Assembly: GCA_022605405.1 (NCBI GenBank)
Contig: JABYQQ010000031.1
Span: forward strand, 62,001-126,000
Source: Earliella scabrosa
Taxonomy: Eukaryota; Basidiomycota; Agaricomycetes; Polyporales; Polyporaceae
Direction: 5' to 3'
DNA: 64,000 nt
Of the stretch, positions 23,008 through 54,903 are shown piece after piece (within the stretch, counting starts at the first letter, position 1; each line of letters begins with the position of its first letter). The translations under genes and the position numbers were made by a program. The notes beneath the pieces were generated by a model. The model saw only the letters and a program-made list of their open reading frames with translations. It ran no database searches and was not told the origin of the DNA.

Positions 23008-23611
23008 TGATGAACTTCAGACCTGGAAGGCAGGGAGCCGACTGTAAGTCAGACGAGTAGACGATCTTCAGTCAGTGAGCGAACGACTAGATTGCATAGA
23101 TGTGTAGTACCTGTAAGTCAGACGAGTAGACGACTACAAGTACTAATCAGTAACTAGTAAGCAAGCATAGTATGTAAGGAGACTTACTCTTCAGTCAGTG
23201 AGCGAACGACTGAAGAGCAACGAACGAGAGACGACAGCTTATATACTGAGAGACGAAGTGAATGAGTAATCGTATGAAGCTGTCACATGAAGCTATGAAT
23301 AATAGCCAAGAATATTCTGAGTAAGAGACAAGCATATTCTGAGTCATACAGTGAGTCTGGAGACTTCTGGAGTATCGTAGAACGCACAGCCTATGTGGAG
23401 AAGTAGCTATGTACAGTAGGAAACATAGTACAGATGCGAAGAAATCCATGTATAGTAGGTAAGTATCAAGTGCACAGCTTATTTCCTTTTTGGGAAATAA
23501 GCGCCAATCGGAACAGACCGGCTTCAATTTGGCACTGGGTACCAGAGGTCGGTGCCATTTCGAAGCCTGCTTCACCCGTGGTCACATGACCGTGTAAGCG
23601 CTCTTTCAACA
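23008..23611 (-). repeat. Solo LTR of a Copia-type element (family 2)
   Basis: 604 bp, starting TGTTGAA and ending TTCATCA on the minus strand, flanked by the 5-bp target duplication ACCCT (23003-23007 and 23612-23616). It aligns by eye with the solo LTR at 54317-54903, including the ends and the repeated hairpin block. A TATA-like stretch lies near 23239-23245. The internal part was presumably lost by LTR-LTR recombination. The repeat lies only 46 bp upstream of the ATG of member B, so it now forms that gene's promoter region. Confidence 0.9.
23042..23211 (-). repeat. Unspliced/spliced block pair in solo LTR
   Basis: On the minus strand: block 1 at 23188-23211 (24 bp), an intron-like segment at 23134-23187 (54 bp, starts GTAAGT, ends TTGTAG) and block 2 at 23111-23133 (23 bp). 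After a 22-bp spacer, blocks 1 and 2 recur directly joined at 23065-23088 and 23042-23064. Both copies of each block are identical. Confidence 0.85.
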
Positions 23612-26270: not shown

Positions 26271-26650
26271 TGTTGAACAATGGACTACGAACAGTAGACG
26301 CGCATTAGGCGCTATGGGCACTGCTTCTTACGATAGATCTTAGGCTGTGCTTCTTTCTTTCCATATTAGGTATACGTTGTACGATACACATGGTTACTAG
26401 GCTTCTCTTTTGTCCAGTCCATTCCAGTGCGTTCTTCTACGCTCCGGACTCTTCTTAGACTGTTCCAGATCGTCCTTGTGACCATACTTTGTTCTCCATT
26501 TGTCGTTATCTTTGTTCTGTCTGAGTCATCCTTCGTCGCTCCTTACTCATCCTCGACTCACTCTGACTCAGACACATCACATGCCCTCCTTACTATCGCT
26601 TACTCATGCAGCTCCTTTACGGTATATAAGGAGGACTCTCTGGGACTCGT

Positions 26651-26681
26651 CTCCTCAGTCTTTCACTCACTGACTGAGGAG
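26651..26681 (+). promoter_or_regulatory. RNA hairpin abutting a 5' splice-like site in the LTR
   Basis: Stem CTCCTCAGTC / GACTGAGGAG with an 11-nt loop. The last G of the stem is the first base of GTAAGT. The same hairpin occurs at 38585-38615, and in family 2 LTRs (54691-54721 and the minus-strand LTR at 23008-23611) as CTCTTCAGTC / GACTGAAGAG, a compensated base-pair change. A role in splicing or packaging is inference. Confidence 0.6.
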
Positions 26682-26830
26682 TAAGTACTCGTCTTACCTA
26701 TGCGTTCATATGCTCTTACTTACAAGTACCTGTGTAGCTTGTCTGTCCGCTCACTTACTAGGTACTTGGCATTATGCTAATATAGTCTTTCACTCACTGA
26801 CTGAGGACTTGTCTGTCCGCTCACTTACTA
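26657..26830 (+). repeat. Unspliced/spliced block pair in Copia LTR
   Basis: Block 1 (26657-26680, 24 bp), intron-like segment (26681-26737, 57 bp, GTAAGT...GTGTAG) and block 2 (26738-26760, 23 bp) are followed at 26784-26807 and 26808-26830 by the same blocks 1 and 2 joined directly. The 57 bp are missing with base precision. The 3' LTR repeats this at an offset of 11934. Confidence 0.85.
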
Positions 26831-26869
26831 GTCGCTTGCGACATCGCCTCACAGGTTCTCACTCCATCA

Positions 26870-26886
26870 GGTTATGAGCCCTGCGC
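26870..26886 (+). promoter_or_regulatory. Primer binding site, initiator tRNA-Met anticodon-arm type
   Basis: GGTTATGAGCCCTGCGC lies directly against the 5' LTR. It is complementary to the anticodon stem-loop of initiator methionine tRNA (loop CUCAUAA), as I remember the yeast sequence, not to a tRNA 3' end. Drosophila copia and yeast Ty5 prime from half-tRNA-iMet in the same way. Confidence 0.8.
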
Positions 26887-27389
26887 TCTGACCGTTGCTA
26901 GTCGTCACATCGCGCGCACCCGACGACTTCTACCCTCGTGCACATCCTCCACTAACTCCTTAGCTCTTGACTGTGCCCGCCGACACTGCTGCCAGGGGGA
27001 CATTCCTGCGCTCGTGACGCAGCCCTGAGCGCTCTTTAGTAGTCACATAGCTCGTAGTATCGTTGTACAACCTATTGTGCTCTCGAGGCACACGGGTCTT
27101 TTTGGATATCCCTCAGCCAGGCCACGCACTTGCGCCCGCCAGCTGTTGTATCCGGGGTGTCATCACCTTTGGAGCCGGAGGACAACCGTTCGGACCCTCC
27201 TTACGATACCATTTTTATACGTACATCGTAGCAGACTCTTTCAGGGCACAGTTGGCAACTTCTACCCTTGGCATTAGCATATCCGACTTGCTAGTGTTTA
27301 AGGTTCACCTCAAAAGGTGTTCATCTCTACGTTGCCTTTGCACGAGGCTTTCCAAACCATCGCACTCTTGAACCTGTCGCATCGACACA

Positions 27390-30204
27390 GTGGCTTCATC
27401 GGACGACGAACCGTTTGATTGTAGTCACTCATACCATCGGCACGACCGCATTGACCAAAGGGACGTCTTCTGGGAAGAGTCAGATAGAAGGTGGTACTAC
27501 TGCGAACGACAACCGTGTCCTAACCGGGAGTCGGAAGTAGCTCAACCAGACAACTGCACTGTACCTCGTCGTAACGTACCTATCGCTCCTGACCAGGTCT
27601 GCCGACCACGAACACCGGACACATCCTCGTCATCCTCATCCCCTGCTTCGTCTGAGCACGAAGTTGCAAATATCCTCGAAGATCCTGCGGAGCCTCCAGT
27701 CCCAACTCCTCTCCCTTCTATCGTTATCTCTCCGCCTACACCGACTCTCACTCCTCTACCAGCCCTCGATCTCATCGTCAACCAGCCAGACTTAACCGAC
27801 TTCGTCTACTCCTTCACCATGTCGGAAGCCGGAATGGAAAAGAGTCTTCCTCAGCTCCACGGGCAGGAAGGCTACAAGGAATGGGCTCGTCAGATGAAGG
27901 GCTATCTCATGATGATCGATGCATGGGATATCGTCAGCGGCACGGAGAGTCAACCAGCTGCCACTGATGCGGCTGGTCTCAAGGATTGGAAGAAGAGAGA
28001 TTCCCGAGCAAGTGGTATCCTCATGTACAAAACCACTGCCGAGGTAGCCAAGTGCTATGAAGGGAAGAACACCTCGAAGGAGATCTGGGATGCCCTGAAT
28101 ACGACCTACGAGAAGACCGACAACGGGTACAGTTTCTCCCGATTCGAACGGCTTCTCAACTACCCTCGTTTCAACGAGAACAAGTCGATCGTCGACCAGG
28201 TCCAGACCTTCATCGGGCTGATGAACGAGCTTACCACAGGCTCCACCAACACCCTCGCCGAGCATATCAAGGTCTACTGGCTCTTCTCCAAGATGCCAGA
28301 TTCCTATCGACCATCGATCTCCACTATCCTCCACACCACGGCTGAGACGGACCTGACCCTTGAAAAGGTTAAGCCGAAACTCAAGCTTGAGGACTCCCTC
28401 CGTGGTACATCGATCGGTCAGGCGAACAAGATCTCCAAGCCCAAGTCCAAGCCCAAGCCTCCTTGCGAGCATTGCGGTAAGACGAACCACGATTCGTCGA
28501 ACTGCTACAAGAAGTTTCCGGAGAAAGCTCCGAAGCGGAACAAGGGCAAGGGCAAGGACAACGGCAACGGCAATGGGAATCAGTCAGGTGGATCTGGGAA
28601 TAATAATGGACATAACCACGCGCACACTCTAGCAGCCTTTGTACCTGTATCTACGAGCACCATCAACGAGATCTCCTTTTCAGCTTATAAGGCGGACAAC
28701 GCCAAAGACATGGACCTTGAGCGAACCACACTCTGGCTCATGGATTCTGGAGCATCTCAACACGTTACTGGCTGCCTCGAGGACTTCACTGAGTACCGTC
28801 CATATGACACACCTGTTCTGTTTGGCACCGCCCAGGCAGGTAGTGACGGACATGTCCAAGGACTCGGTGAAGGTACGGTCAAAGGATACACTTATGTGGA
28901 AGGCAAACGGGTCTCCTTCACACTTCAGAACGTCTGCTACGTTCCAGCAGCAGGCAATACCCGTCTGTACTCCACTGGTGTCATCGAGCGCGCGAAGGGG
29001 TTCATCTATCAAGGGGGATACTACATGAGGATCTTTGACTCAAGGCCGGAAGGCTTTGTCGAATCTGGCAAGACGGTTAAGGTTGTCGGCAATGAGGTGG
29101 TTACTGCCCACTACGCCGCATCACACAACCTATACTACTTTCTGCTTGAGAATGCCGAACGTGATCTCAATGCTGCGTCCCACACTACACTCGATCACGA
29201 CCTTGCTCATCGTCGCTGGGGTCATCCTGGCAAGGAAGCGGTCAAGCGTCTTCCTGATGCAGTCAACGGTGTAGATGGCATTGACTCTAGTTCATCGGAC
29301 AAACCATGCGAAGGATGCGCGAAAGGCAAAATGCATCGCCGTCCGTTCCCTCCGTCTTCGAAACGCGCCTCGGAACCATGCGAACTCGTCCACATGGATG
29401 TCGCTGGGCCGATGAGCACCTCGATTGGTGGTTACAGCTACTTCTGCACCTTCATCGATGACTACACCGGTCTCGCCTGTGTCTACTGCCTGAAGCGTAA
29501 ATCCGATCAGGAGGCCGCTTTCAAGGAGTACAAAGCCTGGGCTGAGACACAGACCGGTCGTAAGATCAAGAAGGTACGATCCGATCGAGGGGGGGAATAT
29601 CTGTCCGATTCGTTCGAGTCATTGCTACGCGAATTCGGGATCGAGCACGATAAGACGTTGCCTGGCTCGCCTCAGCAGAATGGACGTGCTGAACGCTTCA
29701 ACCGGACCATTGAGGAGAAGTCACTCTGTATGCTTCACCACGCCGGACTCTCTCATGGTTTCTGGAAACTCGCACTTGAAGCAGCCGTTCACATCTACAA
29801 CCGTCAGCCCATGAAACGACTCAAATGGCAATGCCCCATCACACTTTGGTCTGGTAAGAAGCCGGACGTCTCATACTTCCGTGTGTTTGGGTGCAAAGCC
29901 TATGTACATGTGCAGAAGGACAAGCGTCATGGGAAGCTCGACGTGAAGGCAGTCGAGAGGACGTTTGTGGGCTATGAACCGGGTTCAAAGGGGTATCGTC
30001 TATGGAACCCGACTGCCCGCCAAGTCGAAGTATCTCGCGATGTGATCTTCGATGAGGACGTATTTCCTGCACGTGCAGACACCGGCACTCGTCGCGCTAC
30101 CCCCGACGACAGTCCGTTCCCTGCTCCACCGTCAGAGGATGCTTCCAATGACGATGTTGATCTCCCTGTTCCTCGTGATAACGACGAACCTCCTCCTCCC
30201 GCTC
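27390..30204 (+). CDS. Copia gag-pol polyprotein, 5' part (gag, protease, integrase)
   Basis: One open frame runs from 27390 to the hAT insertion point. The first in-frame ATG is at 27819; upstream codons may be translated from a spliced leader, since CAG precedes 27390. Gag ends in a CCHC zinc knuckle (CEHCGKTNHDSSNC, about 28467-28508). The aspartic protease has the DSG motif in LMDSGASQHVTG (about 28740). The integrase has an HHCC zinc site (HRRWGHPG ... CEGCAKGK) and a DDE core (MDVAGP, SDRGGEY, NGRAERFNRT). No stop or frameshift seen. The frame ends in foreign codons at the hAT terminus; the final native codon is split by the insertion. Translation of this part alone would give virus-like particle protein and integrase but no reverse transcriptase. 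Confidence 0.93.
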
Positions 30205-30443
30205 TAAGGCTGAGCAACGGATCCAGGTATTTCGCAGGTTGAGCCGTGAAACCTAGATCCGTGATCCGTAGGTTCGGATCCAGTAGGTATAGGTACTAGG
30301 CGCCCGGATCATGTCCGGATCCAGGTTTAGGTTGCACAAATTGAGTGATCCGTAACGGATCATATGTGCATGAGAGCACTTCGAGATGCATCCAGAGAGA
30401 AGCACGACGTCAAATTCAACAATGTACATGAGAACAAAGTACA

Positions 30444-31732
30444 CTAGGACATGTCTGTAAGCACAGGAAGGTCCGCTTCGTCCTCACCAACCCCAGCAGT
30501 GGCGTAAGTCTCACCCCCTGGCAAGGCAAGTAGGCGCTCAGCGGCGACACCGGTGGCTGGCAGCTGCATGAGCGCCCATAGGTCGTCTGTGGATGGGATG
30601 ATGGGGTCCAGAATGACAGCCTGTGACAGAGAGTACAAAGTCAGCCAGAGAGGACCCGTTGAACATGGGTAGAACGTACATCCGGAATGTCTGCGAGTGC
30701 CCAATAGACGATGTCGGCCAGTACCCCATCGGCGTGCTCGAAGGGCCGCATCGCCGCGGCGCGATCAAGAAGATGTCCCGAAAACTCTTGGAACGTACGG
30801 GGGACCAGGCGGGGGTGCCGTGTTACAAATGCATGGTATATGAGGCAGAAGTCGAGAAGAAGCTCGCGCTGTTCACTCGTGAGGCCCATGCGACGCGTGC
30901 GTGGGCTATCAATGATCTTCATCCAGCCCTGACATAACCACGCTGGCACGTCAGGGGCTAGACGGCGCACGGGGAGCACAAACTGGATTGTCATAAGAGA
31001 TGGGGCATAACCTGGGTAGGAGCTCCGAGCCACTCACCGTCACTTTGTCGTCTCGCGTCGGGCTCTCTACCGTGAGTACAACGGTATGTACGGCTTGCGC
31101 AGCGCCCATCAGGTAGCTGTCTGCGGCGAGGAAGATGTTCGCGCGACTTGGGTTGGTCGGGCTGGGCGCCAGATGCGTGCGCGCAAGCTGGGGGCTGCGC
31201 TCGAGAGTACTTTGAGCGTGTAGACTTCGAGCGAGAGGGCTGCGCGCAATGGGAGGGGTGAGGGGTCGCAAGGGCGAGTTCATCGCGAGTGTTCGAAGGG
31301 TATCACAGAAGGTGCGTGCATTGGGAGAAGGACTTACCAAGTCGACTTCTCTGGCCCTCGGGCGTCTAGAGGCGGTCAGGCTCGGGCCTTTCGGAAGTGT
31401 GCGTCCGTGATAACAGATGCGACCGCGCGGTTGCTGTAGATAATCAGGATCCTGTGTCTGAACGTGTGATGGGTCAGGAGTGCGGGCGGCCACGAGAACA
31501 CCGAGACATACCGGAAATGGTTCAGATGGGGCGGACGCGCTCGCCTCGAGGCGAGATATCGATCGTACCGACTGCGCGGCAAGCTGCAAGGTTGATGGGC
31601 GTGAATTCGAGTTTCAGTAGGGCCGTTCTCGGGGAGCGACAATGTGGAGGAGTCGTCAGGTAGTGAGGCATCCAAACGAGACCTGGGGGATGGCACAGAG
31701 TGGCAAATAAGGTTCAGAAGTTCGTCGGGCAT
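30444..31732 (-). CDS. Unidentified gene carried antisense inside the hAT element
   Basis: Divergent from the transposase gene. The last two coding exons are well supported. 30680-30982 (101 codons; FVLPVRR, APDVPAWLCQGWMKIID, LLLDFCLIYHAFVTRHPRLV, ADIVYWALADIP) joins by a GT-AG intron to 30444-30620 (59 codons; LDPIIPSTDDLWALMQLPAT and an acidic tail). Upstream, an exon ending at 31038 (IFLAADSYLMGAAQAVHTVV) fits in phase through a 55-bp intron. The 5' part towards an ATG at 31732 is unresolved: I could not find one clean frame, and it may be damaged. I recognise no family. Location inside the terminal repeats makes it cargo or an accessory transposition gene. Confidence 0.55.
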
Positions 31733-32306
31733 GCAGGGTTTGAGCGCCTATCGCCCTCCCTACTATTCGGCTCAAGAACGTGCGCATCTGGCTGGGGCAA
31801 AAATGCAGCCGCGCACCACCTCCCGCTCTCAGCATCGCTCCCCCATCATCCTCCTCTGCGTCGGTCCAGCCTGCGAGCTTCAACCTGACCGGCCTGCGGC
31901 CGAGAAACACCTTGGCACCACGCACGGAGCCTACTGCGGCCGTCGGACACCTTCCAACAATGGCGATACTAAGGGCTATCGGAGTCGGGTGGTTCACGCT
32001 ATCAGGTATCGTTGCATGTTCATGGTGATTTGGCTTGCTAACCATGTCATGGGACCCTCTCTCCGCAGTGCTTGGGGCTCTACTCGTCGTGCATGCCCAT
32101 TTCACGCTGCACACCATTCTGCAAAGGGACCAACGCGAGGCCGGACAGACGGTTCCTGTTGCTGACGCGTTCTGGAGATATGGTCACTCGAGGCCAGAGG
32201 TGGCTCAGGTATTTAAGGGCCCAATCGTGCGGCTGCGAGGTAAGTATCTCCACCTCGTTCACAGCATTCTCTCTAAGTTCTCTAACCCACTCCGTCTCTG
32301 TCTGCG

Positions 32307-35300
32307 ATGTCAGCCCCGCCGTCGACTGCACCCACCACCGTCAAACGTCGCCGCGCTCCCACTCGCTCCGACGGCACTCAGGAGGCAGCCAAGCGGATTC
32401 GGAGTACCACCTCCGAGTTCGATGAGGCTGAAGCCTTCGAGCTTGACGATGACCCGGACGCTGATGCCGCGGATGGCGAGATCCCCGGAGATGACGAGGG
32501 AGGCCACGTCTCCGAGCCCATCGACGACGACGAGGGCGAGGAACAAGATGAGGAAGATGAACAGGAGGAAGGGCGAGAAGACGACGGCGAGGAAGGGGCC
32601 GAAGATCAAGGACAGGGCGCAGGACCCAAGCGTACCGGCAAGCTCTCGGCCGCGCAGAAGAAAGCTATCTTCCAGACGAAGTACGGCCATCTTTCGGATG
32701 AAGAAGCTCTGCGTGCGTTGCTTCTCCTACATGTGTTTCTTCGGCGGCATGCTGACTTCCGCACCGACCGACTATAGAGGCCATCCGGGCGACATGGAGG
32801 TCGAACGTGTACGACCACTTCCACCCACCAACGATCGACAAGGCGAAGCAGAAGAAGGGCCGTATTGTGTACAAGTTCGTGTGCAAACGGTGAGTGAAGG
32901 GCTTGCGCGTTCGCGAGTGAATCTGTACGCTGATCATTCGACTACCAGACATGGGACTGTGCTTAGCCGCTCCGCTTATGAAGACTCCACCGGTAACCTC
33001 GGGCGTCATGTCACGAGTTGCGACCCGCCTCCGTCCGCAGAAGCCCTCGCGATGGAGGACTACGCGAGGGGGGTGACCTACTCGTGGGGACGCATCCGCT
33101 ACCTCATTGCCATGTGGTGCGCATCGCGGCATCGCCCTTTCTCCATCGTTGAAGACGAGGAGTTTCATGAGATCCTGCACATGCTATACCCCCGCGTGCG
33201 CCTCCCGTCACGCTTCACCGTGTCACGCGACGTCGATATGATCATGAAGGTCTCACAGGAGGAGGTTGCCAAGCTACTACAGGTACGTCGCACACTCTTC
33301 ATTCTCATTGAAGACAGTTTGGTTGACATATCACGCACTCCTAGGCCTTGCAAGGCAAAATCCACATTTGCGTAGACGGCTGGACGTCGCCGAACGTCAT
33401 CGCCTTTCTCGGCGTGACGGCCCATTGGCATTCAGAGGGCAAACTGAAAAATATAATTCTCGCCTATGTCCGGTACGGCGCTGCGGCATCATTCCGCATT
33501 CTTGATGCGTTACTGACCGGACTTGTGCAGCCTGACGCAGGGGCATACCGGCCAATATCTCGCAGAACAACTCGTGCAAGCGCTGAAAGAATTCAAGGTC
33601 GAAAAGAAGGTGTGTTTAACATATCTACACATCCGCGATGGGTCTCATATTCGTCCTTTCCACAGCTCCACGGGGTTACTGTCGACAATGCCGAAAACAA
33701 TACGACGATGATGAAGGCCTTGGGCCGGCTCATACCCGGCTTTCGCGGACTCCAGCTGCGAGTGCGCTGCTTCGACCACGTGCTGAATCTCGTCGTGAAG
33801 GTCAGACCGCGCGAGCTCTATGTCCGAATACCTCACTGATCCATGCACCTCTCACAGGCGATCCTCTCTCAGTTCAAGACCAAGCGCAAGAACGCCGACG
33901 GAGACCTGGAGCCGGACGAGCGAGAGCTCGTCGACCTACTTGAGGCAGCCGAGCTAGACCCCAGCCATGACGCCGACGAAGAGGAGCATGAAGTTGACCA
34001 CGACCGTGAGGCCGCCGACGACCAGGAGATCGATGCCATTGATCTCGAAGAGGATTTTCCCGAGCTAATCCTCACCTCGTCTGATGTTCAGGAGGCCCGG
34101 GTAGCGCTAGAGAAGGTGCGCGCATAGTCTGCTCACGTCCAGAGCATCCTGGCTCGCTTGCCGTGGACTAACTTCGTTTGACGTCCATACTAGATTCTCC
34201 TCCTTTCAAACAAGGTGTGGAACAGCCCCACCGTGCGCGCGGAGCTAGCCAAGCTTGCGCAGGAGGCGAATCTCAATAGCGAGGTACTCGTCCGTGCGGT
34301 CAAGACTCGGTGGAACACAGTCACGCATGTCCTCGACCGCGCGATCGACCTGGAGGATGTCATCCCCGCTCTCTGCGACATGAATCAATTCAACAAGGCC
34401 CGAGGCAAGGGCCTGCGTCTCCGTGCTTTGGTCCCGAAGGATGAAGAATGGACGATCCTCAAACAATTACACGCTCTTCTCCTGGTACGCCATTTGCTCA
34501 TCACTCACGCGCATTCCCTCGATAGACCTCACTAACCCGTCATATGTTAGCCATTCCTCTATGCTACCAACGAGATGTCTCGCAGCGATCGTGCTGCGAT
34601 CCATGAGGTCATCCCCTATATCGACATCCTCACGAACCACCTCGACGACTTCCTCAGCCAGGAGGACCTCCATCCGGCGATCCGCGCCGCTGCCAAACGC
34701 GGTCAGATACTGCTCAACAAGTACTACTCGCGGACGGATGAGAGTATCATTTACCGCATCGCGATGTGTAAGTGTCACCCGACGAAGTTCTTCTCCTCTC
34801 ACCTCTCCAACTCACTAACCCATTCGTTCATCCGCCAGACCTCCATCCTGGCTACAAAGGCCAGTACTTCATCGACCACAAGTGGAAGCAAGTCTGGATC
34901 GACGTCGCCAAAGAACTGGTCCGATACGAGTGGCAAACATACTACAAGCCAGCGAACTCGTCGACTGCACCTGCTGGCCATAGCTCTTCGAACCAAGCAC
35001 GTCAGAGCGCGCCCGCCGATGCCCAGTCCCAGCCGTCAAGCAGCAGCGCGGCCCGCGGTGTTTTTGGCCGCGAGGCGTCTGCCTCATCCAAAAAGGTGAG
35101 CTCTTCTGGCGTCCACTGAACGTGACGATGTGCTCACTCATGCTGTCCCTGCCTAGGCAATGAGCGTCATGTTCTCCGCGATCAAGACTGGTGCTAAGCC
35201 TAGTGCCGGGCCCGTCACAATCGACCCTCTAGAGGCGTACCTGGCCTCTCCACCTCTTGAGCAAGTTACTGACCCGATTGCGTACTGGAACGCCATGCTG

Positions 35301-35733
35301 GGCAACGAGACTGAGGCTCCCCTCGCTCGCATGGCACTTGACTTCTTGTCTGTCCCCGGTGCGTCATTGTCTGCTCAATCTAACCTTCTGTCGTGTCTCG
35401 CTACTAACGATTCTGGTTCTAGCTACCTCTGCGGACGCCGAGCGGGGCTTCTCGCGCGGTCGTTTGACTGTATCCCGCCTCCGGCACTCCCTCAGTGATG
35501 CGTCGATTCGCGCCACGACACTCGTTGGCTCCTGGGCGCGCATCGACGGGCTTATTCCCAAGAAGGCCATCATTCAGAAGCTGGACCCGCAGGCCAACCC
35601 AGCCACCTTCGACGCCGCGCCCACCGCTAGCGTCTCTGGTAGCCGTGTGAAGAACAATGGCCAGGGAAAGGGAAAGGGAAAGGGCAAGGAAGCTAACGCG
35701 TCGGCAGCAGCCGAGGTCATTGTTGTAGATTAG
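32307..35733 (+). CDS. hAT superfamily transposase
   Basis: Cuts and joins the hAT element at its terminal repeats. About a dozen exons with short GT-AG introns. N-terminus acidic (aspartate/glutamate run at about residues 45-110), then a BED-type zinc finger region (AIRATWRSNVYDHFHPP, FVCKRH, STGNLGRHVTSC). The RNase-H-like core shows all hAT landmarks: first Asp in ICVDGWTSPN (about 33370), second in TVDNAENN followed by CFDHVLNLVVK (about 33690-33800), an RW within VKTRWNTV (about 34310), and the C-terminal dimerisation region with SADAERGFSRGRLTVSRLRH (about 35430-35490), which holds the third acidic residue. The end has a glycine-lysine repeat (35661-35687). No stop interrupts the exons I joined. 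With intact ends, the source may still be active. Confidence 0.88.
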
Positions 35734-36316
35734 TCCCTCGTTCGGTTGTTCTGTCTTCGCAGTATGGAAGTCTTATATTATTCGCACTGCTCAAGTTATT
35801 CCGTGAACTACTAGTATCTGTAACATATCCCTATTGCACTCTTCATATCACAAGTTGACTTCTATCTTCACTGTCAAGCGGTGGATACGTCTCAGACTCG
35901 GAACGACGGCTGAAATTGAGTAGAGTTGTACTGTGTATGTCCATGACGACATTCTCGAGCACACGGAGGTGTTGATACCGGCGCCTATAAACTCGCCGAA
36001 GACTCGGACATGCGTTGCGGCTTCCTGAGATCAAACAGCCATGGTAGAAGTATTGTAAAGGTATATGGTGGTTCAATGTCTCAAAGGGCACCGCGGCTCA
36101 GAGGCTGCTATCAAAATCATTGCAGTCACCGTAGGTACCTGTAGGTTCGGATCACCAATCAGGTCACCTACAGGTGTTTAGGTTCGGATCTTTAGGTTTA
36201 GGTCACCCGATCCGGATACCCGTGCGGCTCTAGGTGTGATTGGAAGGTGTCGGAATACCTGTAGGTTCGGATCCGGATCACCCGTAGGTTGATCCGTGCT
36301 CAGCCTTATCCCGCTC

Positions 36317-38193
36317 CGCCACAAGACCCTGCTCCTGCTCCGCCCGAAGCTGAACCGCAGCCGCCGCAACCACAACAGCCTCCGCCGCCTCCCGCTCAGA
36401 TTCCTAAGCCGAATCATCGTCGCGGACGTCATCCTCCTGCCGCAGGAGATGCCCCTCCTCCTCGTCGCTCTGAGCGACAGACCAAGGGTGTCCCTTCAAA
36501 GGCACGGACCGAGGACAACGTGTACGGTGATGAACCTCCCGCTCAGATAGATGCTAGGACCGATGCGGATGGTGAACAGGCTGAGGCACAATCAATACTC
36601 GCGTTTATCCATTACTCTCGGTACAAGTCTGGTATTCCTGAGCACCATAAGGATGCCATGGCTAGACCGGATAGCGAACATTGGAAAGCGGCTGAGCGAG
36701 CAGAGTACGAATCACTAATGGCTAATAAGACATGGGTCTTGGTTCCTCGCCCAAAGGACCGATCCGTCGTCACATGCCGTTGGGTCTATGATCGGAAGTC
36801 AGATGGCCGCTACAAAGCACGTCTCGTAGCTAGGGGATTCACGCAAGTCTATGGGAAGGATTACCACGAAACCTTCTCACCCGTCGCTCGTTTCGAGTCC
36901 ATCCGTTATCTCTTTGCGCATGCTGCCCTAGAGGACTGGGACGTCGACGCGATGGATGTAAAGACTGCGTTCCTCAATGGCGACCTTGACGAGGAGGTCT
37001 ACATGGAACAACCGGAAGGGTGGGTCGCGAAAGGCAAAGAGGATCACGTTTGTCTGCTTAAGAAGGCCATCTACGGTCTCAAGCAAGCCTCGCGCCAGTG
37101 GAATGTCAAAATCCACGACTCGCTCGTCCAACAGGGATTTGTTCGGACGTACTCTGATGCCGGAGTCTACGTATATCGCCGACAAGGGGGGGATTCAGAC
37201 CCTGATCATGTCACTATCATTGTCTTGTATGTCGACGACCTACTTCTCATGGGGAAAAGTCGTGTACAGATTGACAAGGTCAAGAAGGCGCTAGGCAAGC
37301 AGTACAAGATGACGGACTTAGGTCCGGTACAGCGATTCCTTGGTCTACGCATACGTCGAGATCGTCAAGCTAAGACACTCGACATCGACCAGGAAGAGTA
37401 CATCGAGGCTATTCTGGAGAACCATCAGATGGCTAACTGTACGCCTGTGCGCACTCCTCTTCCCTCTGGTGCCGTGCTCGAAGCCGCTCAGACGGAGGCA
37501 TCGGCAAAACTTCTCAAGCGTTTCCAGAGCTTGATGGGCAGTCTTCTCTATGCCTGTCTTGGGACGCGACCCGACATCGCGTTTGCCATCAGCCGTCTCG
37601 GAAAATACAGCGCTAACCCCTCGGAAGCACATCTTCACTATCTCCAATACGTGCTTCGCTATCTCCGGGGGACTTCACATTATCGTCTGCGCTATGACGG
37701 AGCGTCTAATGCCGGTTTGATCGCGTTTTCCGATTCAGACTGGGCAGAGGATCGCGATGATAGGCACTCGCAAACTGGCTTCATCTTCAAGATGGCAGGT
37801 GGTGCAATCTCATGGGCGACGCGACGGCAGCCGACGATTTCGCTCTCTTCTACTGAGGCGGAATACAAGGCAGCGTCAGACACCAGCCGTCAGATGATGT
37901 GGCTAAGGACGTTTGGAGATGAGTTAGGGGACGACATGAGTGCGTCTACGCCCATGTGTATGGATAACCATGGCGCGATCTTCCTCTCTGAGAACCCAGC
38001 CATCGACAGGCGTACCAAGCACATAGAGGTCCACTACCATTTTGTGCGCGAGTATCTCGCCAGTGGGAGTATGGACATCTATTACATCGCAAGCAAGGAG
38101 AATCTGGCAGATGCGCTAACGAAGAATGTCACCTTCTCTGTGGTTGACTACTTCGTACAGCACTCTGGTCTCATTTCTTCCTCCGCGTCTTGA
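36317..38193 (+). CDS. Copia gag-pol polyprotein, 3' part (reverse transcriptase, RNase H)
   Basis: Continues the frame interrupted at 30204. Proline-rich linker, then the reverse transcriptase with WVYDRKSDG, KARLVARGF, DVKTAFLNGDL and the catalytic YVDDLL (about 37228). The RNase H has SDSDWAEDRDDRHS, SSTEAEYKA, the DNHGAI motif and a C-terminal KENLADALTKN. No stop or frameshift to the TGA at 38191-38193. Domain order after integrase confirms Ty1/Copia. Because the hAT separates it from its own start, it is not translated as a polyprotein in the present configuration. Confidence 0.93.
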
Positions 38194-38204: not shown

Positions 38205-38803
38205 TGTTGAACAATGGACTACGAACAGTAGACGCGCATTAGGCGCTATGGGCACTGCTTCTTACGATAGATCTTAGGCTGTGCTTCTTTCTTTCCATAT
38301 TAGGTATACGTTGTACGATACACATGGTTACTAGGCTTCTCTTTTGTCCAGTCCATTCCAGTGCGTTCTTCTACGCTCCGGACTCTTCTTAGACTGTTCC
38401 AGATCGTCCTTGTGACCATACTTTGTTCTCCATTTGTCGTTATCTTTGTTCTGTCTGAGTCATCCTTCGTCGCTCCTTACTCATCCTCGACTCACTCTGA
38501 CTCAGACACATCACATGCCCTCCTTACTATCGCTTACTCATGCAGCTCCTTTACGGTATATAAGGAGGACTCTCTGGGACTCGTCTCCTCAGTCTTTCAC
38601 TCACTGACTGAGGAGTAAGTACTCGTCTTACCTATGCGTTCATATGCTCTTACTTACAAGTACCTGTGTAGCTTGTCTGTCCGCTCACTTACTAGGTACT
38701 TGGCATTATGCTAATATAGTCTTTCACTCACTGACTGAGGACTTGTCTGTCCGCTCACTTACTAGTCGCTTGCGACATCGCCTCACAGGTTCTCACTCCA
38801 TCA
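38205..38803 (+). repeat. 3' LTR of the Copia element
   Basis: Reads the same as the 5' LTR throughout by eye. It is preceded by a short purine stretch (GTGGGAG, 38198-38204) that would serve as the polypurine primer, and followed by the target duplication TTTAG. The hairpin lies at 38585-38615 and the block pair at 38591-38764. Confidence 0.93.
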
Positions 38804-40944: not shown

Positions 40945-42115
40945 TGTCGCGACCTGGGGTCAAGCGAGACGAGGAGGGAACGACGAGGCGAGCGAGGGCG
41001 TCCGACGAGCGCTTGTGCAGCGAGAGTGGAGCAAGGCTCAACACGCAGGGCTGGAGACAAGTTGTATTGAGCGAAGTATCTACAGCGAAGTACAGAGGAG
41101 GCTTACCTGGAGACAAGAGGTCGAAACTGAGGTCTCCAGGTAGCAAGTGCTAGGACTTATATCTACAGTTAGAACAATAGCGCTGGGAGAACAATAGAAC
41201 AATAGCGTGACGGAACAATGGAGGAAGTACAATGGTGCGACGACAATTGTGTCCGGAACAAAGGAGAAGAAACAAAAGGGTGTCTTGGGGATGAAAGTAC
41301 AATGGGGATTGTGGACAATAGAAACAGTGAACGGTCATGAACGGTGGTTAGTTGTAGTGTTGCAGGGTCCGGTCAAGTTCGGTTTTTTGACCTCTCCGGA
41401 GATAACCGGACTTTTAACCGAACTTGACCAGTCCAATTTGAGAGAACCGGACCAAATGTTCGGTTCTACCATAACCGAACCGAACCTCGGTCCGGTTCTC
41501 GGTTATGACCGGTCCTTGACTGGTTGAAAAGCGGCTGTGCTGAAATTTCAACTTTTGCTGAAAACGTAGCCCAGAGCCGTGGGAATCTAACGGTATATAT
41601 AACTATATATTTTGAATCAAAACTGAACGTGCTATGTTCAAAATAAACTTGCCCATATTGGGACAGATGGTTTGTTTTCGGAGTTTTCCGCGGGCGCTTA
41701 GGCGCTAGACCCGGCGCCTATGCTACCAGATTGGGTGTGTTGGCATTTGTCAGCTCAAAAGCCAGCCCATCTGTCCCAAAATGGGCAAGTTTATTTTGAT
41801 TATAGCACCCTCAATTCCCATTCAAAGTATATAGTGTTATATACCGTTGGAATCGTAGAATTATTGGCTACAATATGGGGTACTATTTGTACCAGTTCAT
41901 GACCGGTCGGGACCGGTTATGGACCGGTTCTGATATACGGCTGAAAAAAATAACTGGAACTGAACCGATAACTTGACTGATAATTTTCCGGTTCTGGTCC
42001 GGTTCTTTTCAGTTCTGGTCAGGTCATTTTGCAGTTCTCGACCGGTCGTAGGACTGGACCCTGCAACACTAGTTAGTTGGGCGCTTCCCTAGGCGCTGAG
42101 GGACCGTTCGTGACA
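40945..42115 (-). repeat. 3' LTR of the Gypsy element, split by a hAT relic
   Basis: Starts TGTCACGAACGG and ends GGTCGCGACA on the minus strand. The 717-bp insertion plus its 8-bp duplication account for the whole length difference from the 5' LTR (446 bp). Two substitutions relative to the 5' LTR were noticed, at about 41040 and 41182. Confidence 0.92.
41355..42071. mobile_element. Non-autonomous hAT element, 717 bp
   Basis: Terminal inverted repeats TAGTGTTGCAGGGTCC, target duplication GTTAGTTG (41347-41354 and 42072-42079). No coding capacity. The ends are packed with GACCGGTC-like inverted repeats. The intact 5' LTR at about 53638-53645 shows the unfilled site. Same family as the 716-bp element at 55108. 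Confidence 0.93.
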
Positions 42116-42141: not shown

Positions 42142-45100
42142 TCATGAGCGACGCTTCTTGGGGATGTAGGGTTTGTGAGGTCCATCAGCGTCGGGATGTC
42201 TGGTGTGGAACGCCTCTACCAGCTCAGCAGCATGTTCAACATCGGCTGCATCCTCCCAAGAGTCATTCTCCGGACCCCATCCTTTCCATCAGACCAAGTA
42301 CTGCAGCTTGTGCCATCTGCCCCACCGGCGCGAGTTACGGATTTCCTCCACCTCGTATTCTTCCTCGCCCTCAACCTCGATTGGGGCTGGTTCAGGAGGG
42401 ACCCGTCCTGGCAGTGTACTCTGCTTGTGTGCGTGAAGGAGGGAGACATGGAACACCGGATGGATCTTCATTGTGTGGGGCAACTTGAGTTCGTATGCAA
42501 GTTCACCAACACGCCGTACAACTGGATACGGGCCTGCGAACTTGTCGGCGAGCTTCTTAGGGATGTCTGAGAACCTCAAGTTGCGCGTGTCCAGCCACAC
42601 GTTCTGTCCAGGTGTGAACGTCGGAGTGTCCTGCGCATGGCGGTCGAAGTACTCCTTCATACGCTCTGCTGCCAGTGTCAATGCAGCGGTGGCGTCCTCG
42701 CGTGCCTTGGCAAGTTCTGCGAGTCGTTCGTTGGCTGCAGGTACTTGTGTGTCCGGGTTGGCAGGTACCAGGAACTGCGGTTCATATCCGTACATCAGGA
42801 AGAAGGGGGAGTACCCAGTCGATGAGTGAACTCTGGCGTTGAGTGCGTACTCCGCGATGGGGAGCCACTTGACCCAGTCATCTCGTCGTTGACTGCAGAA
42901 CGCTCGCAGGTACGCCTCTACTTCCTGATTGAATCGCTCCGACTGTCCGTCGGTCTGGGGATGGTATGCAGTGGACAGGGCACTCTCGATGCCTAAGCCC
43001 TTTAGAATGGCACGGAACAGGTCTGCAGTAGGGAAAAGCACGGGTATACCCGCGGGTTTTCGCGGGTTTTGGCTTGTAGCCCTTCCCGAGAGCTTTCGAA
43101 CGGTACCAAGATCGTGCAAAACGGACCAGAATTGAGGGAGATATCTTGAAAACAATCCTGCAAGGTTTTGGAGCAAACCATCAAAAATTGTGACCTGGAG
43201 CGTGACAACAATGTCACCAGTGCCCCTCACAGGTGGTCACCCGCCATACCCGTGGCCCCCGTGACATTGTTGTCACGCTCCAGGTCACAGTTCTTGATGG
43301 TTTGCTCTGAAACTTTGTAGGATTGTTTATTCAATATCTCCCTCAATTCTGGTCCGTTTTGGATGATCCTGATACCGTTTGGAAGCGATGCGCAAGGGCT
43401 ACAAGGCTTTGGCGCTCGCTAAGCGCCTAATACCCGTGCTATTCCCTAGTCTGCAGCGAACTGGGGGCCTCGGTCCGAGATGATCTTTCGGGGCAGCCCA
43501 TGCAGACGGAAGTATTCCCGAATGAAGACGTCTGCTGCTCCTCCGGCATCGATCTCGTCGCTGCAAGGTACCAGGTGCACCAGCTTTCCGTGCCTGTCTG
43601 CCATGAGTTGGATCACATTGTGGCCATCGATCTCAGGAAGGCCGACAATGTAGTCACAAGTGACGATTTGTCCGGGCCTCTCAGGGATTTCGTTGGGCTT
43701 GAGAAGACCTTGAGGTCGACTTCGTACGGGTTTAGTGCGTCGACAAGTGTCGCACGTCCCCACGTACTCTTTGACGAATTTGCCCATCCCTGGCCACCAG
43801 TAGTTGCGCGATACCAACTCGAGCGTTTTCCACTGCCCTGGGTGTCCCGCAGGAGGTAGATCGTGGTGAAGTCGGACGATCTCAGTGCGGAGTGCCTCAT
43901 CTTTCGGTACATAGACCTTTCCTCGGTAGAGGATGAGGCCTTGCTCGACATTCCAATCGACGAGGTCACTCTGGAGTCGCGCTGGTCCCAGCTTCTCCAC
44001 TTTCTGTAGAGCTTCTGCTACCTCCTGTTCCCGTTGGGAGCAAGTGCGAATACACTTTAGCAGGGCTTTGTCGGCCACTACTGCGTTGTGTCCTCTACGA
44101 GCTGCCAGCAGTCTGAACTGCTCCGGTCGTAGCACGATCTGGTCTAGGTTGTCATCGGCATCATCCTTCTGGTGATCAGGACGCCTGGAGAGCGCGTCTG
44201 CACGTCCGTTGGATGTGCCAGGTTTGTGCGTGATCTCGAAGTCAAACCTAGACAGATACAGTGCCCATCGCACCTGTCTACGAGTGAGATGTTGTGCAGT
44301 ACGCCAATATTCGAGATTCTTGTGGTCTGATTGAATCTCGAAACGCCGTGGTAACCCTTCCAGGTAGTGGCGCCAGGCCTCTAAGGCCCGTATGATCGCA
44401 AGCATCTCTTTATCGTAGATCTCGTAGTTGCGCTCCGCCTCACTCATGGACTCGGAGTGAAAGGCGACCGGGTGCCATTTGCCATCGTCCTGTAGCTGTG
44501 CAAGTACCCCACCCGTTGCATATCCCGAGGCGTCCACCTCAATGCGTGTGTCTTTGGTCGGGTCGTACATGCACAGTACTGGGTTCTGGACAAAGCGACG
44601 CTTCAGCTCGTCAAAGGCGTCCTGTTCCTCCTGTCCCCACTGCCAGGGCATGTTGCCTGTGAGACGATCCAAGGGTTTGCAAATGCGACTGAAGTCCTGG
44701 ATGAATCTGCGATAGAAATTCGCAAATCCTCGGAACTTCCGGACATCAGACGCATTGCGCGGAGTAGGCCACTCCTGAATACCCTTTACTTTTACAGGAT
44801 CCATCTCGACACGGTTGTGGGACACCAGAACACCGAGGTACTCGACCTTGGGGACCTCAAACTCGCATTTCTCCGGCTTGCAGAATAGATCGTGCTCTGC
44901 CAATCTTTTCAGGACCTCGCGTGTAACGGCGTGATGTGTCTCAAGGTCGTTGGAGAAGATCAGGATGTCGTCTAAGTAGATCGTGATCTTTCCTTCGACA
45001 ATGAGGTCCTTAAAGATGTCGTTCATGTAAGCCGAGAAGGTGCTAGGCAAGTTGGTCAACCCAAAGAACATCACGTTTGGTTCGAAAAGCCCCCGGTTCG

Positions 45101-46508
45101 TGACGAACGCAGCTTTCCACTCATCTCCCGTCTTAATCCGGATGTTGTTGTATCCCCAACGGATGTCCAACTTAGTGAAGACCTTGGCTTGTTTGAGTCG
45201 ATCCACCAGCTCTGAGACGAGAGGAATCGGGTACCGATTCTTCACCGTAATCTCGTTGAGCCGACGGTAGTCCTGTACGGGTCGCAGACTACCGTCCTTC
45301 TTTTTGATGAAGAAGAAGGGTGACGAAATGGGCGACTTCGACTCGCTGATGTAGCCTTTAGCCAGGTTCTCCTGCAGGAACTTATCTAGTTCTACCTGCT
45401 CGTTGGGGGAAAGGGGATACACTCGTGAATGGAACATCTTGGCCTCTGGTACCAGTTCAATTGCGTGGTCGTACGGTCCGTGCTCGGGGAGCCGTTCCGA
45501 CGCATCCTTGGAGAACACGCGTAGATACTGGTGATACCGTTCGGGCACAATCTGTTCCACCGGGCGCACTTCCTTCTTCTGGTACTCCTGTTCTGCAAGC
45601 TGCTGCGAGTATGTGTAGCCAGCCATTGCAAACAGTTGTGGGGCGTTGGACAAGGCATGTCCTTGCTCCCAGGAGTACAGAAGGGCGTCCTCCGAGTTAT
45701 CCCATTCAACCGGTATACTCGACGGGGTGGTCGGTCCGAGGTCCTCCTCAACCATTACCGTGGCCCGTATCTTCCCTACTCTCTTAACCTTCCGCGTTTG
45801 CCGAGTACTTTGACGCCCCGTAGGCCTAACCCCCGTATCACGCGTGTCCGTCTGAGCAGGCGGTTGGTCTTTCAAGCAGGGTCGACACGACGCAGGACAT
45901 CTGGACAGCTTCAACGTCCCTTGATCCCAATCAACCTTGGGGTTGTGTTTGCGTAACCAGTCCAGTCCAATAATGATGTCCTCCATGCCAATGTCCGTGA
46001 CCGTGAACACCACCTTCTCTCGGTGTGTTCCTATCTCCAATTCCAGGATGGCAACATCTGTGATCGTGCCATCACGATTCAGAGTTCCATCGATGTTGTA
46101 CAGCGGTATTGGCGTAGCCAACTTCCGCGTAACCACACGGTTCTCCTTGACGAACCGTCTACTCAGGAAGGTTGTAGTGGCGCCACTGTCCACCATGGCC
46201 ACGACCTCCTTCCGGTGCTGCTTGCCGATTAGCTGTACTGGGACGTGAAAGTGTTGGCCATCACGATCTAGTTCATAGATAATCCCGGACCCGAGTACAG
46301 CAAACCGACTATTCGTACAAGGACCTACACCCGCAGCCGCTAGTGAGGTCCGGATCAAAAATCCTCCGTCTTCTCTGCCGCTTTCACAGAGGCCAGCTGT
46401 TCCTGCAGCTGCTTCAGCTTGGCCTCCATTTGCTCGAATTGGGCGGCGGAGATTTTCTTGGCCTTGCAGTTGCGTGCAATGTGCCCTGGTTTGCCGCACT
46501 TGAAGCAC
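42142..46508 (-). pseudogene. Gypsy pol: protease, reverse transcriptase, RNase H, integrase, chromodomain
   Basis: Frame -1 to gag. Protease with VDSGATTTFLS (about 46180), reverse transcriptase with KKKDGSLRPVQDYRRLN and YLDDILIF (about 44980), RNase H with EVDASGYATGG. The integrase has HHCC (HHDLPPAGHPG ... CDTCRRTK) and the DRG of the catalytic core, where a 420-bp hAT relic (43029-43448) splits it. The frame resumes with ALSTAYHPQTDGQSERFNQE. The C-terminus has an HPVFHVSLLH segment and a chromodomain (EYEVEEIRNSRR ... WKGWGPENDSWE), with a TGA at 42289-42291 where most chromodomains have lysine. The original stop is at 42142-42144. Removing the relic would rejoin the integrase in frame, so only the chromodomain nonsense codon is a point lesion. 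Confidence 0.9.
43029..43448. mobile_element. Fold-back non-autonomous hAT element, 420 bp
   Basis: Terminal repeats TAGGGAA(A/T)AGCACGGGTA, 8-bp target duplication GTCTGCAG (43021-43028 and 43449-43456). Almost the whole element is two inverted arms meeting at about 43220-43260, including GACCTGGAGCGTGACAACAA and its complement, so a transcript would fold into one long hairpin. No coding capacity. Confidence 0.92.
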
Positions 46509-47640
46509 GTGCGGGTCTCCGATTGCTGGTCGGTGCTCGTACCAGCGATCTGTTCCTTGGCCTTCCCTTTGAAGGGACGGAACTTGCTGGCCTCGATGGA
46601 AGCGAGGCCCTGGCTGATCTCAAGGGCCTCCTTCTGCATCTTGGCGAAGGTCGAGACGTCGCGTCCGCTGGTGATGAGGGCGGTGCGCAACTGCTCAGGG
46701 AGGCCATCTCGGTAGCGCATGCGCTTGTCCTCTTCTCCAAGACCCGTCCGAGCGGCGACCGCGTTAAACTTGGCCGTCCACTCTTTGACGGTAGCCATCT
46801 TGGGACGCTGTGCCCCTCGATTGAGCTGTCGGAGCTCCTCATACGCCGAGGCCTTGTCATCGACGGCGCAGAAGTGGGCTTTGAAGTCCACCTCGAAGGC
46901 CGCGAAATCGGCCCAGCAGGGCTGCGAGCCCCTCAACTGTGCGTAGTAGGGCAGCACCCAGATTGCCGCGTCATCCTTGAGGAAACCCAGAATCATCTGG
47001 AACTTCAGGTCGTTCGTGACTGCAGTGGGAAGGTTGTCGAAGAACGCCTTGGCCCGCGAGAGGAAGGCGAGAGCAGCGATGGGGTCCTTGCCATGGTACG
47101 GCTCAGGGGCGAGCAGCTTGACCAGGGCGTCGGGGATGGTGGTGGAGCCAGACATGGTGGTGGATTGGGAGGTCTGTACGGCTACCGGTGTAGCGGTTGT
47201 TACAGGTTGTGCGACCTGCGGCGTGGGTTGAGCAACCTGTGGCAGAGGCTGCGCTGTGGTGGGGGAGGGAGGGCGCGCGGATGGAACGGGTTTGGCAGGC
47301 GGGGAGTTGAGGATGATAGTGGTTGCGGGTTCTTGGGCAGGCTGACTTGGTCCCGCAACAGCTGGGCCTGGAGAGGATGCGCGTCGTTCCTGTAAGCGTT
47401 GGGCAACGAGTGCAACGCCGGGGAGGGCAGTGGTAGGGGTAGGAGGAGTGTTGGCGCGACTGGGAACACGACTAGGGGGACGAGAGGTAGTGCGGGTGAC
47501 TGGTTGTGTTACAGGGAGACCAAAGATCGCCCAGATAACGTTGGCGTTATGTTCAGTGCACTTCTCGAGGTCGTGCTCTGTGAGAGTCTGCTGGGGTGCT
47601 GCCCGGCCGCGGTTTGGGCACGGTTGGTTGCCACAGACTT
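46355..47640 (-). pseudogene. Gypsy gag, N-terminus lost to an insertion
   Basis: Structural protein of the virus-like particle. It reads from the junction near 47640 (FKVCGNQPCPNRG) through a proline/threonine-rich region, a capsid-like helical part (PEPYHGKDPIAALAFLSRAK, VKEWTAKFNAVAARTG, YRDGLPEQLRTAL) and a CCHC knuckle (CFKCGKPGHIARNC, about 46490-46531) to TGA at 46355-46357. Codons upstream of about 47640 in the same frame belong to the Plavaka fragment. The stop is preceded by a run of five T (46357-46361, counting the T of TGA), and pol continues in the -1 frame at that point. Confidence 0.85.
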
Positions 47641-53235: not shown

Positions 53236-53681
53236 TGTCGCGACCTGGGGTCAAGCGAGACGAGGAGGGAACGACGAGGCGAGCGAGGGCGTCCGACGAG
53301 CGCTTGTGCAGCGAGAGTGGAGCAAGGCTCGACACGCAGGGCTGGAGACAAGTTGTATTGAGCGAAGTATCTACAGCGAAGTACAGAGGAGGCTTACCTG
53401 GAGACAAGAGGTCGAAACTGAGGTCTCCAGGTAGCAAGTGCTAGGACTTATATCTACAGTTAGAACAATAGCACTGGGAGAACAATAGAACAATAGCGTG
53501 ACGGAACAATGGAGGAAGTACAATGGTGCGACGACAATTGTGTCCGGAACAAAGGAGAAGAAACAAAAGGGTGTCTTGGGGATGAAAGTACAATGGGGAT
53601 TGTGGACAATAGAAACAGTGAACGGTCATGAACGGTGGTTAGTTGGGCGCTTCCCTAGGCGCTGAGGGACCGTTCGTGACA
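53236..53681 (-). repeat. 5' LTR of the Gypsy element
   Basis: 446 bp, undisturbed. It looks like a solo LTR, but its outer flank carries the target duplication ACGAG matching that of the LTR at 40945, and the host gene resumes in frame at 53687. It preserves the unfilled site of the 717-bp hAT relic. Confidence 0.92.
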
Positions 53682-54316: not shown

Positions 54317-54903
54317 TGTTGAACTTAGGGTTATCCGGCACTGTCCGGACCGATATGTCCCCATATGGACTTGTGGCTATGCGTTCACATGACGCACAGC
54401 ATGGGCTATGCTTCTTCATTACTATATATAGATAACTCTGCATCTGTACGATAGTTCTTTCTTTCCGGACTTTACCTCTACGTACCAGTGCGTTCTACGA
54501 TGTTCCGGATAGTTCCAGACCTTATGTCTGACTCAGACTTGGTGCTCATCCTCGCGTCATACTGACTCATCCTCGCATCATAGCCTCGTATGCCTCTTAC
54601 TCATCGTCTTGTGGCTAACATGTGACTGCTTTCTATGCTTACTCAGCTACCTTCCCTACGTCTATATAAGCAGCTCACATTTCGCCTCTGCTCTTCAGTC
54701 GTTCGCTCACTGACTGAAGAGTAAGTCTCATACATACATATGCTCTCTACTTACTTACTGACTAACTTCTAAGTACTTGTAGTCTCTCTCTGTTCGACTT
54801 ACAGGTACTTATCTATGCAATATAGTCGTTCGCTCACTGACTGAAGATCTCTCTCTGTTCGACTTACAGTCGGCTCCCAGCCTTCCAGGTCTGAAGTTCA
54901 TCA
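54317..54903 (+). repeat. Solo LTR of a Copia-type element (family 2) inside gene C
   Basis: 587 bp from TGTTGAAC to TTCATCA, flanked by GAAAG (54312-54316 and 54904-54908). TATA box at 54662-54669 and hairpin 54691-54721. Related to the solo LTR at 23008-23611 in both ends and internal plan. Confidence 0.93.
54697..54869 (+). repeat. Unspliced/spliced block pair in solo LTR
   Basis: Block 1 at 54697-54720 (24 bp), intron-like segment 54721-54782 (62 bp, GTAAGT ... CTAAC ... GTAG) and block 2 at 54783-54804 (22 bp). After a 19-bp spacer, blocks 1 and 2 are directly joined at 54824-54847 and 54848-54869. The copies are identical. Confidence 0.85.

Follow-up and report, generated by a model that had tools for sequence, protein, structure and literature searches.

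The window, by which we mean the whole 64,000-nucleotide stretch of Earliella scabrosa DNA analysed here, carries a copia element bounded by two LTRs of family A, together with solo LTRs of families B and C (Table 1). The element has copia-type domains, with the integrase upstream of the reverse transcriptase, as in Ty1/copia elements. About 6 kb of extra DNA (30243-36264) splits its ORF between these two parts; a 448-aa frame within that DNA (32029-33375) has no Pfam match. Many other genomic copies retain a single frame of 1569-1616 aa. The best named matches of the window reverse transcriptase come from Rhodofomes, Dichomitus, Trametes and Ganoderma.

Further support for a Ty1/copia assignment comes from the ends of the elements, which have TG...CA LTRs and, in 34 of the 37 listed LTR pairs, a 5-bp TSD. 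The sequence GGTTATGAGCCCTGCGCTC follows the 5' LTR in 34 of these 37 pairs, is one base off in one and is not at that place in two; it is similar to the half initiator-Met tRNA sites at which copia elements are primed, so that initiator-Met tRNA is the presumed primer. The two LTRs differ by only 0-2 bases over the stretch compared in 35 of the 37 pairs. Judged by domains, LTR ends and TSDs, the owners of these LTRs are young Ty1/copia elements, and the TSDs and near-identical LTR pairs indicate that the intron-bearing LTRs described below transpose. One insertion (G000:C8:2161308-2167352; L012, L104 and L121; TSD GTAAG) has LTRs of two subtypes, which differ in intron 1 and in the base preceding the second E1; this mixture suggests that the template was switched from one RNA to another, or that conversion took place later.

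Table 1. Features of the copia element and of the LTRs in the window
Feature	Position	Strand	Remarks
5' LTR, family A	26271-26869	+	TGTTGA...CATCA; TSD TTTAG
TATA box TATATAA	26623-26629	+	starts 34 nt before E1 in each of the four window LTRs
E1, first copy	26657-26680	+	begins at the A of initiator-like TCAGTC; predicted transcription start
Intron 1, GTAAGT...GTGTAG, 57 bp	26681-26737	+	exactly missing from the fused copy (26784-26831) and from L097
E2, first copy	26738-26761	+	from the sequence
Predicted intron 2, GTACTT...TTACTAG, 70 bp (spacer + fused copy)	26762-26831	+	GT-AG ends; E2/TCGC junction at the fused copy
E1, second copy	26784-26807	+	CTGAC branch-point-like motif, putatively for intron 2
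E2, second copy, fused to E1	26808-26831	+	terminates in the predicted 3' splice site of intron 2
Primer binding site GGTTATGAGCCCTGCGCTC	26870-26888	+	adjoins the 5' LTR end
gag + integrase part of copia ORF	27372-30242	+	Retrotran_gag_2, Pol_BBD, gag_pre-integrs, rve, SH3_retrovirus
Reverse transcriptase part of the same ORF (RNase H by position)	36265-38193	+	RVT_2
3' LTR of the copia element	38205-38803	+	identical to the 5' LTR
3' LTR parts	E1 38591-38614; intron 1 38615-38671; E2 38672-38695; intron 2 38696-38765	+	
Solo LTR, family B	54317-54903	+	GAAAG on both sides
Family B solo LTR parts	E1 54697-54720; intron 1 54721-54782; E2 54783-54804; spacer 54805-54823; fused copy 54824-54869	+	
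Solo LTR, family C	23008-23611	-	AGGGT on both sides
Family C solo LTR parts	E1 23188-23211; intron 1 23134-23187; E2 23111-23133; spacer 23089-23110; fused copy 23042-23088	-	

All four window LTRs share the same order of parts: U3, TATATAA, a block E1, intron 1, a block E2, a spacer, E1 and E2 fused, and a tail of 34-38 bases after the fused copy. The split-repeat sites lie at 26657-26831 (+) and 38591-38765 (+), which are the two LTRs of one copia element, at 54697-54869 (+) and at 23042-23211 (-). Intron 1, with lengths of 57, 57, 62 and 54 bp, respectively, begins with GTAAGT and ends with TGTAG in all four, and holds CTGAC- or CTTAC-like branch-point candidates (here and for intron 2, candidates were chosen by what we take to be the branch-point consensus). 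The spacers measure 22, 22, 19 and 22 bp (sites 26657, 38591, 54697 and 23042), E2 ends in TTACAG or TTACTAG, and the fused copy equals E1 plus E2 base for base at every site. A preliminary description of this DNA had given the same block order at four sites that we find to be exact, and its segment of 54-62 bp that starts with GTAAGT and is missing from the fused copy, as well as its spacer of about 20 bp, agree with our measurements. It was also correct that both copies of E2 are identical within each LTR, although the sequences it quoted for this block were too short, the true length being 22-24 bp.

Scanning for split repeats (10 + 8 exact bases, a gap of 40-80 bp and the fused copy downstream) returned five in the window, four of them with GT-AG boundaries, and none in 30 dinucleotide shuffles, more than chance would give. 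In a similar scan, GT-AG junctions were placed at 26681, 54721 and 23187, the identical junction at 38615 being merged with that at 26681.

The spacer and fused copy together also resemble an intron. This segment of 65-70 bp starts with GTACTT or GTACTA directly after E2, ends with TTAC(T)AG, and includes both CACTGACTGA, which lies within the second E1, and the second E2, which is rich in pyrimidines. We predict that it is a second intron, which the preliminary description overlooked. Both candidates have the attributes of spliceosomal introns, namely GT-AG ends, lengths as short as is usual in fungi (54-62 bp for intron 1 and 65-70 bp for intron 2), and exact intron-less forms that exist in DNA. 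A leader from which both are removed reads E1E2 plus the LTR tail, which is the fused copy with its downstream bases. In other words, the predicted doubly spliced start of the LTR's own RNA is already written out in the LTR, 3' of the introns. If intron 2 were kept in the RNA, the leader would mismatch the second copy and tail, and further copies ought to accumulate; a search of families A-C with the exact pattern found no LTR with a tandem spacer-E1E2 expansion, its sole match being L097, an LTR considered below.

The relationship between the two copies was followed across the 51.7 Mb assembly, in which the 3' end of E1, joined to a GTRAGT donor, has 139 exact matches. Our sample comprised 90 LTR loci and 18 further R-regions, and 105 of these 108 were parsed automatically; the remaining three are two fragments (L066, L067) and one LTR without intron 2 (L116). 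Since L051/L071 and L052/L072 are the same places, the 105 parsed rows represent 103 distinct ones. Both E1 and E2 are identical between the copies in 100/105 parsed LTRs (98/103 distinct places), and the five exceptions (L064, L065, L099, L101 and L114), with one or two differences each, show independent drift, as expected of dead copies. Between families, E1 is identical at 21/24 positions (A versus B/C; B and C have the same E1), and E2 at 18/26 (A-B), 17/25 (A-C) and 19/24 (B-C) aligned columns. The E2 of families A-C is about half identical to that of a further family, F. In each family, both copies have been altered together. The copies within an LTR are thus more alike than are those of different families, the comparison that the preliminary description had called for.

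Passage through RNA is expected to erase introns, and intron-marked retrotransposition assays are based on this expectation. We propose that the introns persist here because reverse transcription uses doubly spliced RNA and the resulting strong-stop DNA lands on the fused copy of the 3' LTR; we assign this reading, which derives from DNA sequence comparison, a probability of roughly 80%. Transcription would begin at E1, and splicing would rid the cap-proximal 5' LTR of both introns, so that the leader reads E1E2 plus tail. Reverse transcription, primed just inside the LTR, would copy this spliced leader, and the strong-stop DNA would then jump to its sole unbroken match in the 3' LTR, the fused E1E2 plus tail. 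From there, synthesis would proceed upstream through the spacer, E2, intron 1, E1 and U3. In the new LTR, the introns would accordingly stem from the RNA's 3' end and the fused E1E2, freshly made, from its spliced 5' end, so that the second copy would be rewritten from the first in every cycle and the introns would survive the RNA stage because they are located upstream of the landing site. The model requires the introns of the 3' LTR to remain unspliced in the template. It is supported by the start of the E1 repeat, which coincides in all four window LTRs with the predicted cap site TCAGTC, 34 nt from the TATATAA start, and by the repeat boundaries, which coincide with GT-AG splice sites for both introns.

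Imperfect cycles would yield LTRs that lack one or both introns. Landing of the doubly spliced RNA's product on the second E1 would give the full form and landing on the first E1 the intronless form, and RNA that has lost only intron 1, or only intron 2, would give rise to two mixed LTR forms.

In first-strand transfer as established for retroviruses, the end of the strong-stop DNA joins at the start of the transfer repeat and may carry extra bases. We found that the base 5' of the second E1 is variable, with T at 109, C at 13, G at 13 and A at 3 of the 138 matched places. Family A (45 places) has T 29, C 13 and A 3, and families B/C (93 places) have T 80 and G 13. Among the 105 parsed LTRs, the second E1 is preceded by T in 88, C in 10, G in 5 and A in 2, and the first E1 by C in 105/105. 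With moderate confidence, this variable joint points to the second E1, and not the first, as the landing site. Changes were counted on trees built without the junction column from LTRs among L001-L090. For family A (30 LTRs, 10 distinct), the junction requires three changes and each of the 32 other variable columns one; for family B (53 LTRs, 29 distinct), where the signal is weaker, it requires two, with five other columns also at two and one at three. Some junction alleles are probably common to several LTRs by descent. As sole proof, the variability of the junction was rejected, since seven family B sites, the junction included, need at least two changes.

LTRs with missing introns were sought from the U3 and E1 context, which continues with G, like the intron 1 donor, at 134 places and runs directly into E2 at eight. 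Seven of the eight have the form U3-E1E2-tail, with both introns gone; the other, the 3' LTR L097 (G000:C23:442228), retains intron 2 and reads U3-E1E2-spacer-E1E2-tail, the sole place of this kind found. The converse form, with intron 1 and without intron 2, is represented by L116 (C17:1204199), a partial count because the pattern used for loss of intron 2 alone fits families B and C and not A. Several of these LTRs belong to identifiable insertions: an element on C11 has two intronless LTRs and the TSD TCCAC, an element on C23 has a fully spliced 5' LTR (L098), an intron-1-less 3' LTR and the TSD CGGGG, and the copy on C14 is a solo intronless LTR with the TSD CTATC. The number of independent events is smaller than the seven intronless LTRs, since L092 and L093 bound a single element, and L095 and L096, which have a common 3' flank, represent one duplicated insertion. 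The latter two (G000:C23:421630-421890 and 424250-424500) lie in opposite orientation, 2.7 kb apart, as an inverted duplication around one insertion. A further candidate for a mixed LTR pair, C9:402640 with C9:409187, was dropped because the flanking bases disagree.

As proof of splicing, the fully spliced LTRs are weakened by the fact that deletion between the E1 repeats yields the same letters, and the LTR without intron 2 could likewise come from deletion between the E2 copies. Only L097 resists such a one-step deletion. A single base distinguishes its two E2 copies: the first has G and the second A, the variant also present in the intronless L091, as if the copies came from different parents; two successive template jumps could make such an LTR. 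Taken with the identity of the copies and the variable joint, the intron-less LTRs support the earlier inference that the second copy is regenerated from spliced RNA, even though that proposal had missed the second intron.

An improbable alternative is a single origin of the fused copy from spliced cDNA, followed by its maintenance through purifying selection only, because it provides intron 2 with a branch point and a 3' splice site; the template would then be unspliced RNA. The second copy does contain the CTGAC motif, the pyrimidine-rich stretch and TTAC(T)AG that such selection would preserve, and unspliced RNA would regenerate the LTR too. Splice signals, however, need no base-for-base identity of E1 and E2, yet the copies are identical in 100 of the 105 parsed LTRs while E1 and E2 differ between families; nor would selection of this kind place the variable base before the second E1 rather than the first. 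Still less likely is that the short repeats of each LTR are kept identical without splicing, by gene conversion or by recombining with each other. The repeats do lie close together, and the seven fully spliced LTRs could be explained by deletions between the E1 copies. Conversion, though, would have to act on tracts of 22-26 bp that are apart in one copy and joined in the other, and to convert both while intron 1 and the spacer stay. It also leaves unexplained why the boundaries are GT-AG, why the repeat begins at the predicted cap site and why the joint varies. Recent duplication alone, in families too young for the copies to drift, is the least credible, since the near-identity of LTR pairs makes copy identity expected inside one family but A, B, C and F are mutually old by their E2 divergence and the copies match in each, which led us to reject plain duplication.

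We also scanned, without prior E1 or E2 sequences, the 931 bp downstream of the reverse transcriptase match in one member each of copia families D, E and F, whose reverse transcriptase segments are 51%, 45% and 41% identical, respectively. Family F (L125) has the same layout as families A-C in different E1, intron and E2 letters: a 26-bp E1, a 55-bp intron 1 (GTATGTTC...TATAG), a 25-bp E2 ending in CTATAG, a 16-bp spacer starting with GTATAG, and then E1E2 fused. The layout thus recurs in a second, distant copia family of the same genome, which counts in favour of the proposed model. Four genomic places, L125 included, match family F. In one older relative, within L019, the E2 copies match, the E1 copies differ at three bases, and the bases just 5' of the second E1 differ too. 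No such layout was found in the 931 bp from the single members of D and E, apart from one trivial self-match in D, and a window LTR served as positive control; the split-repeat layout is therefore not universal in copia elements and not required for copia replication.

Beyond this genome, reverse transcriptase searches of viral contigs, with a single sequence and with an alignment, and of wider genome contigs with a single sequence retrieved no relatives. The alignment-based search of the wider genome contigs retrieved 26 copia-bearing loci filed as prokaryotes (L126-L151); these bacterial- and archaeal-filed contigs are probably eukaryotic contamination. The layout is absent from these 26 loci, many of whose contigs may lack LTRs, and the 12 GT-AG matches among them all represent a tandem repeat in L144.

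The elements share with Ty1/copia (Pseudoviridae) the Gag-integrase-reverse transcriptase order, TG..CA LTRs, 5-bp TSDs and a primer site adjoining the LTR, and differ in having two predicted introns and a pre-spliced leader copy within the transcribed part of the LTR. In HTLV/BLV and foamy viruses, a splice donor lies in R and its acceptor outside the LTR, unspliced RNA is the genome, and no pre-spliced copy is known; the likeness to the present LTRs is confined to a 5' splice site located after the cap, inside R. The DIRS, PAT and Ngaro elements have split direct repeats, and DIRS-like elements use a tyrosine recombinase and are not known to make TSDs. Their A...B...AB logic, in which ends are rebuilt from other copies, is formally similar, whereas here the split repeat is bounded by splice sites and lies within each LTR, and the rve integrase and TSDs rule out membership of the DIRS-like group. 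Functional introns within LTR elements are known from EVADE, a copia element of Arabidopsis, and Ogre, where they are described as serving alternative splicing for subgenomic RNAs (PMC12786077). In the present elements, by contrast, it is the LTR that holds the introns, and the template appears to be spliced RNA. The main text of a survey of fungal Copia elements does not contain the word "intron" (PMC5445492), and a candidate precedent concerns the bacterial gene ltrB (PMC4256276). Among the openly licensed papers listed by our searches, we found no description of LTR introns maintained by a pre-spliced copy.

This mobile element seems to retain spliceosomal introns through its RNA stage by means of a simple arrangement of repeats. 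In elements of this kind, transcription and the transfer repeat would begin at separate points of the LTR. LTRs with introns are more numerous than those without, and intron loss looks irreversible, which suggests that the introns pay. Speculatively, the benefit could lie in splicing-coupled export, or in removal of the 5' copy of 3'-end signals. Along the latter line, we tentatively consider, as a possibility on which we would not rely, that splicing lets identical LTRs act oppositely, intron 2 being cut out near the cap, and the 3' end being cleaved and polyadenylated unspliced. Intron 2 holds the second leader copy and possibly poly(A) signals, so that, once it is excised, the 5' LTR could no longer end the transcript; in the 3' LTR, cleavage and polyadenylation would precede splicing, and the same stretch would serve as the landing site. 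If this holds, splicing would be a replication licence that solves both intron loss and premature 5' polyadenylation. The choice of landing site by the first strand, the gain from leader introns and the means by which identical LTRs are told apart can now be tested.

The window also contains a 12.7 kb element with 410-bp repeats at 40945-41354 and 53236-53645 that are 99.5% identical. It carries a Ty3/gypsy-type polyprotein (43446-46619, -), a frame at 51083-52408 with a weak match to DUF6532, under the cut-off, and two long imperfect inverted repeats, at 43073-43405 (152-nt arms) and 41566-41871 (118-nt arms).
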